From assembly GCF_002335805.1 (NCBI RefSeq), contig NZ_NISU01000001.1:186001-250000 (forward strand): a DNA stretch of 64,000 nucleotides, written 5' to 3'. The stretch is from Bacillus sp. FJAT-45350 (GTDB lineage: Bacteria > Bacillota > Bacilli > Bacillales > NISU01). The position numbers were made by a program, and so were the translations under genes. Shown in pieces: positions 16,669-61,969 of this stretch; position 1 is the first letter of the stretch; each line of letters starts with the position of its first letter. The notes below the pieces were generated by a model. The model did no database searches, was not told where the DNA came from, and worked only from the letters and a program-made list of their open reading frames with translations.

Positions 16669-17145
16669 TTATGTTGATATTCTTTCTACTTTAAAATCTT
16701 CATGATCATTTGAGAATAACAACCCATGAAATGTAAGCTTATGTGGTAAGAGTGGGTGCTTGTTTAACATCTCTAAGTTTGTTTGAATTTCTACTTTAGG
16801 ATTTCTAGCTGAAAGCCATTTTTCTAAATAATGTTTAGAAGGGTGGTCAAGGTAATGTAATAGCTCAAATGTTTCATCCTTAACCCCTTCCTGTTGAAGC
16901 CAAGCGCGTATATCAGAATAGGAAGTATGCTCATTTTTATCCACTATATAATCTACAAAGTAGAAATCAGAAATTTGTTCCTTATATGCAGCTAATAGTA
17001 TAGAACGAACTGTGTTTCCAAAAGGGTGAAGCACGCCATGATGATACGATTGCAATATGACTACATCTTTCTTATCTAGCTGTAAATGATGTAATGTATA
17101 ATCAATTATTTCAATATGAGATGTTAAAATCATGCTTTTTTTCAT
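16669..17145 (-). CDS. cysteine-free beta-carbonic-anhydrase-like protein
   Basis: A 158-residue soluble protein. HPFGNTVRSILLAAYKEQIS (40-59) resembles the RNAGN...RSLLIA stretch of beta-carbonic anhydrases, and LTFHGLLFSNDHEDFKVE near the C-terminus resembles their final VHGWLYD segment. Both zinc motifs are lost: CxDxR aligns with SHIEI near residue 9 and HxxC aligns with DYIVDK; the protein has no cysteine at all. It therefore cannot be a normal zinc enzyme. It follows sbtA by 27 bases in the same operon, suggesting a regulatory or scaffold role in bicarbonate uptake (inference). The start is preceded by GGGGAGGT. Confidence 0.6.
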   Translation of the reverse strand: MKKSMILTSHIEIIDYTLHHLQLDKKDVVILQSYHHGVLHPFGNTVRSILLAAYKEQISDFYFVDYIVDKNEHTSYSDIRAWLQQEGVKDETFELLHYLDHPSKHYLEKWLSARNPKVEIQTNLEMLNKHPLLPHKLTFHGLLFSNDHEDFKVERIST

Positions 17146-17172: not shown

Positions 17173-18189
17173 TTAATACAAGAAATTAGCTAGTGAATAG
17201 AATAAAGGAATACCGATAACTAAGTTGAAAGGGAATGTAATCCCAAGAGCAAGACCAAGGTAGATGGACGGGTCAGCTTCAGGTACAGAAGAACGTAAAG
17301 CCGCTGGCGCTGCGATATAGGATGCACTAGCTGCAAGTACGCCCATTAACGTTGCTCCTCCAAGAGAGAGTCCTGCCACATAACCAGTTAAGATTCCTAA
17401 TACCCCGTACATCAATGGCATAACCGTAGCGAAGGCTAATAACTTCACTCCATGACGTCTAACAACAGCTAAACGTTGTCCTGCGATTAGTCCCATGTTT
17501 AATAAAAATAGTATTAAAATACTTTGGTAGAGGTCTAGGAAGAGTGGTTTAATAACGGGAATACCATTTTCACCAACAGCAAGACCAATAAGAAGACTTC
17601 CAACAAGTAGTAGTACACTTTTTCCAAAAAAGCTTTCTTTCAAAACATCTTTGCTAATAAAAGATAAAGGATTTTGAGCAATAATTCCTACCTTCTTATC
17701 TGGTAGGACAGTTTCTTTGTCTTTTGATTTCTCTAAAATACCTAATAATAATAGAGCTACTAAAATAGCTGGTACTTCCATAAGAACAACCATTGCATTC
17801 ATAAAGCTTTCATAGCTCGTATTTGAGTTTTCTAAAAAAGTAATTGCTGCACCGTACGTAACAATACTTACTGAACCATAAGTTGCAGCTAGACCAATTG
17901 CATTTTTTAAATCCATTTTCATCAGTTTTCTAAGTACAAATAGGGTCACTATTGGAATGACAGTACCTAAAAATAATGCAGCGACAATTGGTTTAGATAC
18001 GGTCGCCAATGAATAGTTTGACAGTTCAATACCACCTTTTAACCCGATGGCGATTAATAAATAAATACTTAACGCTTCCCCAAGCCCTTGTGGGAACTTT
18101 AGGTCAGACTTCACCATTGCGGCAATAATGCCTAGCAAGAAAAATAATACTGCTGGAGATAATAAATTTTGCACGACCATATCTAACAT
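17173..18189 (-). CDS. sbtA: sodium-dependent bicarbonate transporter, SbtA family
   Basis: A 338-residue membrane protein of the SbtA/DUF897 family, in cyanobacteria a Na+-driven bicarbonate importer. About ten helices occur in two halves. Family-like segments are LKFPQGLGEALSIYLLIAIGLKGGIEL, GLAATYGSVSIVTYGAA and, in the second half, GGATLMGVLAASASYIAAPAALR. The start at 18189 follows GGAGGGTTCAGT; an upstream start at 18237 is inside the preceding hairpin and unlikely. It sits between DUF2294 and the carbonic-anhydrase-like gene. Function in Bacillaceae is by family homology only. Confidence 0.85.
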   Translation of the reverse strand: MLDMVVQNLLSPAVLFFLLGIIAAMVKSDLKFPQGLGEALSIYLLIAIGLKGGIELSNYSLATVSKPIVAALFLGTVIPIVTLFVLRKLMKMDLKNAIGLAATYGSVSIVTYGAAITFLENSNTSYESFMNAMVVLMEVPAILVALLLLGILEKSKDKETVLPDKKVGIIAQNPLSFISKDVLKESFFGKSVLLLVGSLLIGLAVGENGIPVIKPLFLDLYQSILILFLLNMGLIAGQRLAVVRRHGVKLLAFATVMPLMYGVLGILTGYVAGLSLGGATLMGVLAASASYIAAPAALRSSVPEADPSIYLGLALGITFPFNLVIGIPLFYSLANFLY

Positions 18190-18224: not shown

Positions 18225-18265
18225 CAAAAAAGACCAACGAAGATGATATTCATCAACGTTGGTCT
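18225..18265 (-). terminator. hairpin with T-run between DUF2294 gene and sbtA
   Basis: Minus-strand stem AGACCAACG/CGTTGGTCT (18257-18265 and 18231-18239) with an inner TTGATGA/TCATCTT stem, then TTTTTTG. It ends only 36 bases before the sbtA start, so it either terminates most DUF2294 transcripts or acts as an attenuator for sbtA. Confidence 0.75.
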
Positions 18266-18310
18266 ACCTTGCACTCACCTTAGTAGGCGTTTGCTTGATC
18301 TCCCAAATCA

Positions 18311-18691
18311 TTATTCAGCTAATTTCTTTTCTAAATTGTCCTGTAGAATAAAGACAATAATACGTTCTCCGTTACGGGTACTAATATCGGTGTGAAAGCT
18401 TTCGACTTGCTCATTTGTTAATGAGTAGATAAGATCTTTTAATTGTTTGTTTCCTGTTTCAATTAAATCAGACCGGATTTTCTTTATTGAGAGCAATCCA
18501 GTTTCGCTTTTAGTCAGCTCTTTTTCAGCTGGCGTTAATATCCCCTGAAGCTGTACGATAATCATATTACGTAAAATATCTGATTTAACTTGAACAGAAC
18601 CTCTTCCGAAATATTCCTTTTCCCATTGAGTGAGGGCTTTACTAATTTCAGCCTCTAGCAGACCTTTTTTACGTTTCTCCGTTGTTTCCAT
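18311..18691 (-). CDS. DUF2294 family protein
   Basis: A 126-residue soluble protein that matches the DUF2294 pattern: LEAEISKALTQWEKEYFGRGSVQVKSDI, then MIIVQLQGILTPAEKELTKSETG, and a C-terminal VESFHTDISTRNGERIIVFIL. Its biochemical role is not established. The start at 18691 follows AGGGGGTTACCT; an upstream ATG at 18709 is weaker. It is the first gene after the structured leader and precedes sbtA, so a role linked to bicarbonate or sodium is suggested by context only. Confidence 0.75.
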   Translation of the reverse strand: METTEKRKKGLLEAEISKALTQWEKEYFGRGSVQVKSDILRNMIIVQLQGILTPAEKELTKSETGLLSIKKIRSDLIETGNKQLKDLIYSLTNEQVESFHTDISTRNGERIIVFILQDNLEKKLAE

Positions 18692-18783
18692 AGGTAACCC
18701 CCTAATCAATGCTTATATAAACAGAATATTACAATTAAATTGCTTAAGAACTCAGACAACGTCTATGTTCTTAGATAAAAAAA

Positions 18784-18968
18784 CGGTATATTCCACTGTT
18801 TAATTACTTTCAAAACAGCAAAATATACCGATTATCTTTAATCTCGACTATGATGGATGAATAGTTGGTTTTCATCTTATCCCTATCAGGTTATGATATT
18901 GACATAATGCTAACCTATATCCCCATATAGCATCTATTAGTAACATCTCGGTAAAAATTATAGTGTTA
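18784..18968 (-). ncRNA. candidate structured leader or small RNA upstream of DUF2294-sbtA
   Basis: A transcript of about 185 nt is predicted from a perfect promoter at 18975-19003 to an intrinsic terminator whose stem pairs CGGTATATT (18822-18830) with AATATACCG (18784-18792), strengthened by CTGTTT/AAACAG, followed on the minus strand by seven T. Inner hairpins are visible: CTATAT-GGGG-ATATAG, TTATG-N7-CATAA, and GATGAA-N9-TTCATC. A UACCGA near the 5' end can pair with UCGGUA in the terminator 5' arm, a possible antiterminator. No coding frame is evident. I do not match it to a known riboswitch. It could be an attenuating leader or an independent sRNA. Confidence 0.5.
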
Positions 18969-18974
18969 ATAATC

Positions 18975-19003
18975 ATTATAATTTCTCACCATTACAGTGT
19001 CAA
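18975..19003 (-). promoter_or_regulatory. consensus sigma-A promoter
   Basis: TTGACA (18998-19003) and TATAAT (18975-18980) on the minus strand with an exact 17-base spacer: both hexamers are perfect. Transcription would start near 18968, about 277 bases before the DUF2294 gene. Confidence 0.8.
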
Positions 19004-59902: not shown

Positions 59903-61969
59903 TTGATTTCAGAGCCAATATCTAATCCAGTCTTAATATTTGGACTGGCTATGCTTATTTTTCTTTTAGCTCCAATGATTATGAGAAGGTTAAAGATTCC
60001 TGGGATAATTGGCCTCATATTTGCTGGGGTTATTGTAGGTCCCAATGGAGTTGGACTATTAGACAGGGACCCTACGATTGTTCTATTAGGTACAGTTGGG
60101 CTTCTATATATTATTTTTATAGCTGGACTTGAAATTGATTTAGATGGATTTAAGAAATACAAGCAGAGAAGTATTGTTTTCGGGTCTATTTCATTTACAA
60201 TTCCCTTTTTATTAGGGACTCTAATGGCTTTTGCTTTAGGCTATTCGTTAGCAGCTTCTCTGTTACTTGGTTCTTTATTAGGTTCACATACATTACTTGC
60301 TTACCCGATCGCAAGTCGTTTTGGGATCGCGAAAAATAAAGCAGTAACGACAACTGTTGGTGGAACAATTATGACAGATACTCTTGCTCTTTTGATATTA
60401 GCTATTATTGCTTCTTCAACGACAGGAGAGTTAGATTCTACCTTTTGGTTCACGATGTTTGTTTCTTTAGGAATTTACGTTGCTGGTGTTCTAATTATTA
60501 TTCCTATGTTAGCAAAGATATTTTTCCGCACGATGAGTAGTATAGAAGGCTCAATCGAGTTTATCTTCGTTATGAGTATTCTTTTTGTGACTGCTTACCT
60601 TGCAAGTGTTGCTGGGCTAGAGCCAATTATTGGTGCCTTTTTGGCTGGTCTAGCGTTAAACCGATTTATTTTGGAGCATAGTCCCTTAATGAATCGAATT
60701 AAATTTGTCGGTAACGCCTTGTTTATCCCATTCTTTTTACTTTCTGTAGGAATGTTAATGGATATTCAAGTATTACTAAGTGACCCGTCTGCTTGGTTAC
60801 TTTCTGCGCTAATTATCCTCATCATTAATGGTGGAAAATTTTTAGCAGCTTGGATTTCAGGGAAAATTTATTCCTATTCTAAAGAGGAAGTAAAACTAAT
60901 GTATGGTCTATCGATTCCGCAGGCTGCAGCAACATTAGCGGCTACATTAGTTGGGTATGAAATTGGGTTGTTTAATCAAGCTACTGTAAACAGTGTAATT
61001 GTTATGATTTTAATCACGTGTATGGTTGGACCATATTTAGTTGAGAAATATAGTAGAAAAATAGCGCTACACGAAGAACAGAAGCCATATGAACCGTCTG
61101 ATGCTCCGCAAAGAATTTTAATTCCGTTAGCAAACCCAAAAACAATGGAGTCACTATTAGACCTTGCTTTTATTTTACGTGGAACTAAACAGGAACCACT
61201 TTATCCTTTATCAGTTGTTCAAGAGAAAAGTGGACAATCAGCATCTAAAATTGCTGAGGCGGAAAAAATGTTAGAGCATACGAAAAACTATGCATCTGGT
61301 GCAGGAGTCCCGATTCATTTACTTACTCGAGTTGACCAAAATGTCACTTCAGGTATTATTCGCGCTATTGAAGAGAGACGAATCAAAAAAGTTGTCATTG
61401 GTTGGAATGGAAAGTTATCAACTCCACAGCTAATTTTCGGAGGGATTCTTGACCAATTATTAGAGCGAACAAATGAAATGATTTACGTTGCAAGGCTTGG
61501 ACATCCCCTTAATACAACAAAGAGAATTGTATTAATTTTGCCTTCGGGGGTTGACCATAAGTCTGGTTTCTATGAGTCAGTTAGTTCGATTAAAGAGTTA
61601 GCCAATCAACTAGGTGCATCCTTACTTGCAATAGTTGTAAAAGATGATGCTACTACTTACGAGGAAACATTTAAAAACATGAAACCTGATGTTTCCCAGA
61701 AGTTTGTAGGTATTGAGGCTTGGAATGAAATTCATAACCAATATTTAAACGTTTTACGAAAAGATGATCTTGTTGTTGTTTTAAGTGCTAGAAGAGGAAC
61801 GATTGCCTGGCATCCTCAACTAGAACGTCTTCCAAGAGTTCTAGCTGAAGCGATTCCTGAGAGCTTTATTATGATTTACCCACCAGAATTAGATGTTGTA
61901 GATTCACGTGGTTCAAGAGGAACTGAAGTACCACGTACACTACTGCGATCGAGAGAATACGATGAATAG
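59903..61969 (+). CDS. CPA2-type cation/proton antiporter with UspA-like C-terminal part
   Basis: A 688-residue antiporter: about twelve helices (8-385) with PGIIGLIFAGVIVGPNGVG, LLYIIFIAGLEIDLDGF and EPIIGAFLAGLALNRF. The C-terminal 280 residues lack RCK motifs and instead show two alpha/beta segments (RILIPLANPKTMESLLDLAF; RIVLILPSGVDHKSGFYESV) like universal stress protein domains. Start is TTG at 59903, preceded by AGGGGGAAAG. It differs from the preceding YjbQ in regulation domain, so the two probably respond to different signals (inference). Confidence 0.85.
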   Translation: MISEPISNPVLIFGLAMLIFLLAPMIMRRLKIPGIIGLIFAGVIVGPNGVGLLDRDPTIVLLGTVGLLYIIFIAGLEIDLDGFKKYKQRSIVFGSISFTIPFLLGTLMAFALGYSLAASLLLGSLLGSHTLLAYPIASRFGIAKNKAVTTTVGGTIMTDTLALLILAIIASSTTGELDSTFWFTMFVSLGIYVAGVLIIIPMLAKIFFRTMSSIEGSIEFIFVMSILFVTAYLASVAGLEPIIGAFLAGLALNRFILEHSPLMNRIKFVGNALFIPFFLLSVGMLMDIQVLLSDPSAWLLSALIILIINGGKFLAAWISGKIYSYSKEEVKLMYGLSIPQAAATLAATLVGYEIGLFNQATVNSVIVMILITCMVGPYLVEKYSRKIALHEEQKPYEPSDAPQRILIPLANPKTMESLLDLAFILRGTKQEPLYPLSVVQEKSGQSASKIAEAEKMLEHTKNYASGAGVPIHLLTRVDQNVTSGIIRAIEERRIKKVVIGWNGKLSTPQLIFGGILDQLLERTNEMIYVARLGHPLNTTKRIVLILPSGVDHKSGFYESVSSIKELANQLGASLLAIVVKDDATTYEETFKNMKPDVSQKFVGIEAWNEIHNQYLNVLRKDDLVVVLSARRGTIAWHPQLERLPRVLAEAIPESFIMIYPPELDVVDSRGSRGTEVPRTLLRSREYDE

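Follow-up and report, generated by a model that had tools for sequence, protein, structure and literature searches.

Judged by comparison with related genomes, the minus-strand leader ahead of the mpsC-sbtA operon is a 5' attenuator and a member of a conserved RNA family, here called M1, that is absent from Rfam 15. The window (the whole stretch of 64,000 nucleotides that was analysed) also carries M2 with its terminator T2 (18304–18226, minus strand), a second and related attenuator that the original prediction had missed. As M2 was found in the window, the operon has one attenuator before mpsC and another before sbtA. From their sequence context, M1 and M2 appear in Bacillus-type bacteria almost exclusively before genes for bicarbonate or CO2 import, and we give conditional attenuation of inorganic-carbon genes by these two elements a probability of about 0.8. 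The features are listed in Table 1.

Table 1. Features of the mpsC-sbtA operon and its two attenuators in the window.
Feature	Position	Strand	Basis
Sigma-A-type promoter TTGACA-17-TATAAT	18975–19003	−	12/12 match; recurs ahead of homologous leaders
M1 conserved leader hairpin (P0, purine loop, P1, P2, AG/AA loop, P3)	18825–18958	−	R1 match, covariation
P0 5' strand UACCGA (antiterminator strand)	18948–18953	−	Conserved pairing; predicted probability near 1 before terminator 3' arm
M1 core hairpin GGUU-AG-CAU.../...AUG-AA-AACC (P2, AG/AA loop, P3)	18867–18915	−	Invariant bases; in minimum-energy fold
P0 3' strand UCGGUA, base of terminator 5' arm	18826–18831	−	Conserved pairing, folding
Terminator T1, hairpin and seven T	18777–18831	−	Sequence, fold; terminator likewise placed in homologous leaders
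mpsC (DUF2294, Pfam PF10057 MpsC), first operon gene	18311–18691	−	Pfam E = 4e-37
M2 second attenuator hairpin GGGAG...AGACC	18261–18304	−	R2 match 18304–18228; folds as consensus
Terminator T2, GACCAACG...CGUUGGUC and T run; ACC common to M2 outer stem	18226–18263	−	
sbtA, Na+-dependent bicarbonate transporter	17173–18189	−	Pfam PF05982, E = 6e-114; start ATG 18189 judged from relatives
158-aa carbonic-anhydrase-like gene	16669–17145	−	Weak match to carbonic anhydrase 6y04, E = 3e-4

The flawless promoter that had been predicted from the sequence was confirmed. Its −35 box TTGACA (19003–18998) and −10 box TATAAT (18980–18975) are separated by a 17-nt spacer, and it was the sole 12/12 match among the 21 promoter-like sites between 16 and 22 kb. 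Promoter-like sites as such were not above chance in this region (21 against 26.5 expected). In the homologous leaders, TTGACA and a −10 box at equal distance recur. The leader RNA extends from about 18968 to 18777 on the minus strand and, as had been stated, lacks a coding frame; no minus-strand ORF of at least 60 aa was found in it. The fold of the whole leader had an energy of −50.4 kcal/mol (z = −4.5), and none of 200 shuffles was equally stable. For the leader without the terminator, z was −2.1 and 6 of 200 shuffles were as stable. The intrinsic terminator with seven T was also borne out, as an 18-bp hairpin from 18831 to about 18784 followed by the T run at 18783–18777. T1 was absent from the terminator scan because its 11-nt loop exceeds the limit of 8 in the scan tool.

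Leader DNA similarity gave no plasmid match, and the matches within the order, beyond the leader's own site, were only at chance level. Homologous leaders were reached via the SbtA protein, then through the upstream regions, and then with covariance models. The protein search led to relatives in Anaerobacillus, Salipaludibacillus, Ammoniphilus, and Bacillus taeanensis, and the SbtA protein was present in 80 of the 397 genomes of the order. In nearly all fetched relatives mpsC was directly upstream of sbtA. Their leaders had in common the promoter, a CCGAGAGAU box, a core UUUAGCAU...AUGAAAAAG hairpin, a GAUAAAUCGGUAU box, and a terminator. The covariance model R1 was built from a 31-sequence alignment with the window left out, and it matched the window leader with 37 bits (E = 2.5e-4). 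R1 gave no match ahead of the other sbtA copy in the window's genome (L091). A weak partial R1 match at 60658–60718 of the window (minus strand, 17.3 bits, E about 1) covered the P0 arms only and is probably an ordinary terminator.

In the alignment of 53 M1 members, which was fitted to the model and is hence biased towards it, 87.4% of the cells pair and 24 of 30 pairs change on both sides. None of 500 shuffles reached any of the covariation measures, and slid controls paired below 50%. The variable stem P1 provided an independent check: in 30 of 34 cases its two arms paired better with each other than with arms taken from other sequences.

The body of the leader had been described as three small hairpins, and comparison with the relatives corrected this to a single long, interrupted hairpin that contains two conserved internal purine loops. 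M1 comprises the base stem P0 (consensus ACCGA:UCGGU), a purine loop with (G/A/C)AG opposite AAA that is flanked by AU:AU, the sequence-variable P1, P2 (CUUU:AAAG), a loop with AG opposite AA that adjoins an invariant C-G pair, and then P3. At the AG/AA loop, A-G-C, G-A, and the C-G pair were invariant in 53/53 aligned members. The inner loop of the window is a variant form that is found in Anaerobacillus too. The six-base complementarity of UACCGA and UCGGUA, which the original prediction had picked out, is real and is conserved across relatives as P0.

P0 uses the same bases as the 5' arm of the terminator, so P0 and the full terminator are mutually exclusive. Folding of the growing window transcript, predicted at equilibrium and not kinetically, gave P0 a probability near 1 until about 18790 and near 0 once the 3' arm of the terminator was made. 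Forcing P0 in the full window leader cost 4.5 kcal/mol. The same equilibrium predictions put P0 at about 0.99 until the 3' arm of the terminator is made and at about 0 afterwards, both in the window and in 30 of 32 relatives; the median energy gap was 6.5 kcal/mol. Conservation, covariation, and folding together support the earlier reading of an attenuation leader with an antiterminator pairing.

M2 is a hairpin different from M1, and in the relatives it occurs between mpsC and sbtA and also directly ahead of dabBA and other genes. The model R2, built without the window, matched the window with 40.7 bits (E = 1.1e-8). The layout of M2 is GG(G/U)AG, an 8-bp stem, AA opposite (A/C)G, a small hairpin, and AAACC; in the consensus, the CC of AAACC belongs to the terminator ACCGACAA...UUGUCGGUUUUUU. 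The (G/U)AG/AAA loop of M2 is identical to the one that M1 has above P0. M2 sequences were gathered by a pattern fixing GG(G/U)AG and AA(A/G)CCG(A/G)C, so the invariance of these letters is partly by construction and the inner covariation is unaffected. Across 39 sequences, changes on both sides were seen in 12 of 14 pairs, a value that no shuffle reached. The pairing of the M2 terminator, which cannot form together with the GG:CC stem, was conserved as well. In predicted folding, the probability of the outer GG:CC pair was above 0.5 in 47/51 cases before the terminator and in 0/51 after it.

R1 detected M1 in 84 of the 397 genomes of the order (48 of 135 genera), and R2 detected M2 in 119 of the 397 (63 genera). 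A few of the weakest matches of both models are false, and through their prefilter the whole-genome searches missed known sites, including those in the window's own genome, so these genome counts are lower bounds. The R1 search gave 51 extra M1 sites, 49 of which precede carbon-associated genes and two of which have no recognised gene behind them. dabB-dabA, with or without mpsC first, follows 33 of these sites; five precede mpsC, with or without sbtA or a carbonic-anhydrase-like gene; icd follows four, DUF6671-icd three, and DUF6671-ilvD two; and a distant sbtA follows the other two (one then with sbtB, one behind an insertion). Behind the strong new M2 sites lies the same gene set, and both M1 and these M2 sites stand before inorganic-carbon genes, sbtA2-sbtB among them, in many genomes. 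Many dabBA leaders have lost P0 and its terminator and kept the M1 core, with M2 as the terminator-overlapping part. M2-M2 tandems were observed ahead of dabBA or icd (L183, L184, L185, L189, L196) and are reminiscent of tandem riboswitches or tandem protein sites.

Outside the order M2 is all but absent, with R2 matches in 11 of 368 genomes at low scores. Two of these loci, from other families (L203 and L207), hold a genuine M2 adjoining mpsC, and the match in L204 appears to be an ordinary terminator. Within the order, the R2 sites with low scores (L197–L202) were rejected as plain terminators. L203 (1125–3092) comes from a distant family of the phylum, and behind mpsC and M2 it has a major-facilitator transporter in place of sbtA. 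The icd gene was seen behind M1, M2, or both, either by itself or together with DUF6671 or mpsC (L142, L154, L163, L164, L137, L147, L148, L189, L195), and in L138 and L145 DUF6671 and then ilvD stand behind M1 and M2. DUF6671, which has a zinc-ribbon-like C-terminus, is found repeatedly behind the elements in the company of sbtA, sbtB, icd, and ilvD (first ORF of L138, L187, L188, L195, and L016 4547–5422) and is a candidate inorganic-carbon protein.

The genes downstream of the leader had been named as DUF2294, SbtA, and a carbonic-anhydrase-like gene, and the protein searches agreed with this, the similarity of the last to carbonic anhydrase being weak. No Pfam family was found for this 158-aa protein at 1e-3. 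In relatives, too, a similar protein is encoded behind mpsC or sbtA. MpsC was encoded in all 33 tested genomes with a genuine element, where its gene adjoins the element or ends the same gene cluster. The one genome without MpsC (G160) had only a weak R1 match (34 bits) and no carbon genes. MpsC relatives occur without the element too, and the co-occurrence may only reflect membership in the same pathway. The predicted structure of MpsC had a pLDDT of 87.6. Foldseek gave no match at E ≤ 0.001, the best structural Z (7.2) was in the background range, and no RNA-binding fold stood out above background. Beside the operon copy there are further versions of MpsC, namely paralogues that form a second clade and two-domain proteins of about 240 aa (G000:C1:1665505–1665831 and its counterparts elsewhere). 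S. aureus grows in air without mpsC and does not need it for transport complementation, and mpsA is 1.7–2.5-fold lower in 5% CO2 (PMC6689103).

The most likely mechanism is an antitermination switch that would be ON under CO2/bicarbonate shortage, where the ON direction is taken from the topology only. A factor would recognise the conserved purine loops ((G/U)AG opposite AAA; AG opposite AA) and stabilise P0 or the outer stem of M2, and RNA polymerase would then read through. In both M1 and M2 the stem beside the purine loop takes bases from the terminator, so a stabiliser of this stem would turn the genes ON. The gene set points to inorganic carbon as the sensed signal. As these genes import bicarbonate or CO2, the natural signal would be a shortage of inorganic carbon in the cell; otherwise, transcription would stop at the terminators. 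The presence of icd and ilvD, which are not obvious carbon-uptake genes, counts against this reading.

MpsC, the co-operonic protein, is our tentative candidate for the antitermination factor, at somewhat less than even odds. The layout and the constant presence of MpsC suggest MpsC-dependent antitermination. If MpsC is the factor, the layout would be pyr-operon-like, with the regulator gene within the operon and an attenuator for each segment, and the logic would be LicT/RAT-like. The small modular loops reused with different spacing, together with one attenuator per operon segment, favour a protein effector. That mpsC is not needed for growth or transport in S. aureus, where mpsA responds to CO2, also counts in favour of this reading. 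Against the MpsC step stand the failure to find an RNA-binding fold above background in the protein and the lack of a growth defect on deletion of mpsC in S. aureus, though no such RNA element is known there.

A possible alternative, which we regard with some doubt, is a ligand-binding riboswitch: without any protein, the purine loops of the two elements would make up a binding pocket for an ion or small molecule, or dock into one. Both elements are conserved structured leaders with a stem that excludes the terminator, as would be expected of a riboswitch. The unpaired bases AG C/G AA are invariant in 53/53 M1 members and covariation is strong, while the tandems (M2-M2, and M1 core with M2) and the modular expression platforms resemble those of some riboswitches. 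The signal could be Na+, pH, c-di-AMP, a metabolite that accumulates when carboxylations are starved, or bicarbonate itself, the last by a logic that is not yet understood. The ndhF-ybcC genes of B. subtilis are the homologue of dabBA. They rise seven-fold in the absence of c-di-AMP (PMC7857571), and a link of c-di-AMP to the elements is conceivable. However, the conserved unpaired core is small, and between M1 and M2 both its spacing and the strand that carries it differ; a local protein site would explain this better than a single pocket. A further point against direct sensing of bicarbonate is that bicarbonate would then have to switch its own uptake genes ON if binding stabilises P0. We think it unlikely that M1 and M2 are two related aptamer architectures, used alone or in tandem, of a riboswitch class that responds directly to the inorganic-carbon status (bicarbonate, CO2-linked pH, or a carboxylation metabolite) and controls bicarbonate uptake via SbtA and DabAB.

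The RAT-like position of M2 over its terminator, and the lack of a recognisable RNA-binding fold in MpsC, would also agree with antitermination by another RNA-binding protein of the host, with MpsC merely a fellow member of the regulon. We consider this improbable, as no small protein of unknown role other than MpsC accompanies the element constantly, and we know of no candidate for another such protein. Terminators alone would lower downstream expression, and T1 and T2 might merely be unregulated partial terminators that set the mpsC:sbtA ratio, with the hairpins protecting the RNA. A fixed ratio needs neither conserved unpaired loop bases nor mutually exclusive pairings across 48 and 63 genera, and this explanation is very improbable. 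The small RNA that the original prediction had offered as an alternative is hardly credible. A free RNA ending at T1 and acting in trans would suit the leader's own promoter, strong terminator, and lack of a reading frame, but across genera the elements are consistently found ahead of the same genes, the base stem shares bases with the terminator, and M2 lies inside operons with no promoter of its own noted. RNA released at T1 may arise as a by-product in any case.

How heterotrophic bacteria sense their CO2/bicarbonate supply is largely open, and the CO2 response of S. aureus mpsA proceeds by an unknown route (PMC6689103). M1 and M2 give a defined RNA handle on this sensing in Bacillus-type bacteria, where the element is probably part of the tuning of inorganic-carbon supply. 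The candidate regulon ties together SbtA, DabAB, SbtB, MpsC, the carbonic-anhydrase-like protein, DUF6671, and isocitrate dehydrogenase, and it gives MpsC, whose function is unassigned, a role that can be tested. Should the effector prove to be a small molecule, the elements would represent a new riboswitch class for inorganic carbon.

Rfam 15 gave no match at the gathering score, either for the whole window or for the 20+ loci carrying M1 or M2, and sub-threshold scans matched only at terminator hairpins. An Rfam match and absence from related genomes were the two outcomes named beforehand as refuting the attenuator reading; both were checked, and neither occurred. ykkC was considered for the CCGAGAG string and ruled out, as there was no Rfam match at all. 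In the literature covered, which included few subscription papers and no preprints, no description was found that joined DUF2294, DUF2309/DabA, SbtA, or bicarbonate with a riboswitch or RNA motif.

The pyr operon has several attenuators, 5' and intergenic, and its first gene encodes the regulator. The mpsC-sbtA operon resembles the PyrR-controlled attenuators of B. subtilis (RF00515) in having several attenuators, at the 5' end and between genes, and a first gene that is possibly a regulator. The elements are not members of RF00515, with 22.4 bits against a gathering score of 54, and MpsC showed no relation to PyrR by any test made. The direction also differs: here the recognised stem overlaps the terminator, so binding would turn the genes ON, whereas in pyr it turns them OFF. 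The RAT antiterminators of BglG/LicT/SacY (RF03530, bglG-cis-reg) share with our elements a hairpin with two internal loops and an outer GG:CC stem that overlaps the 5' arm of the terminator. However, RF03530 reached 29.8 bits against a gathering score of 80, at model positions 48–126, on only the terminator part of an M2 locus; the sequence differs, the hairpin here is larger, and the genes are not sugar-PTS genes. Terminator riboswitches such as c-di-AMP ydaO and Na+-I DUF1646 likewise have a conserved leader stem that competes with an intrinsic terminator and transporter genes behind it, but no class of them matched here in Rfam, and ligand binding by M1 or M2 is only hypothetical. The S. 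aureus mpsABC locus contains homologous transporter genes (MpsAB = DabBA) with mpsC beside them and lower mpsA in 5% CO2, whereas no RNA element is described there (PMC6689103). M1 and M2 are thus closest to the pyr operon in layout and to RAT in logic, members of neither by model match, and represent a new RNA family with a known type of mechanism, the terminator/antiterminator attenuator.
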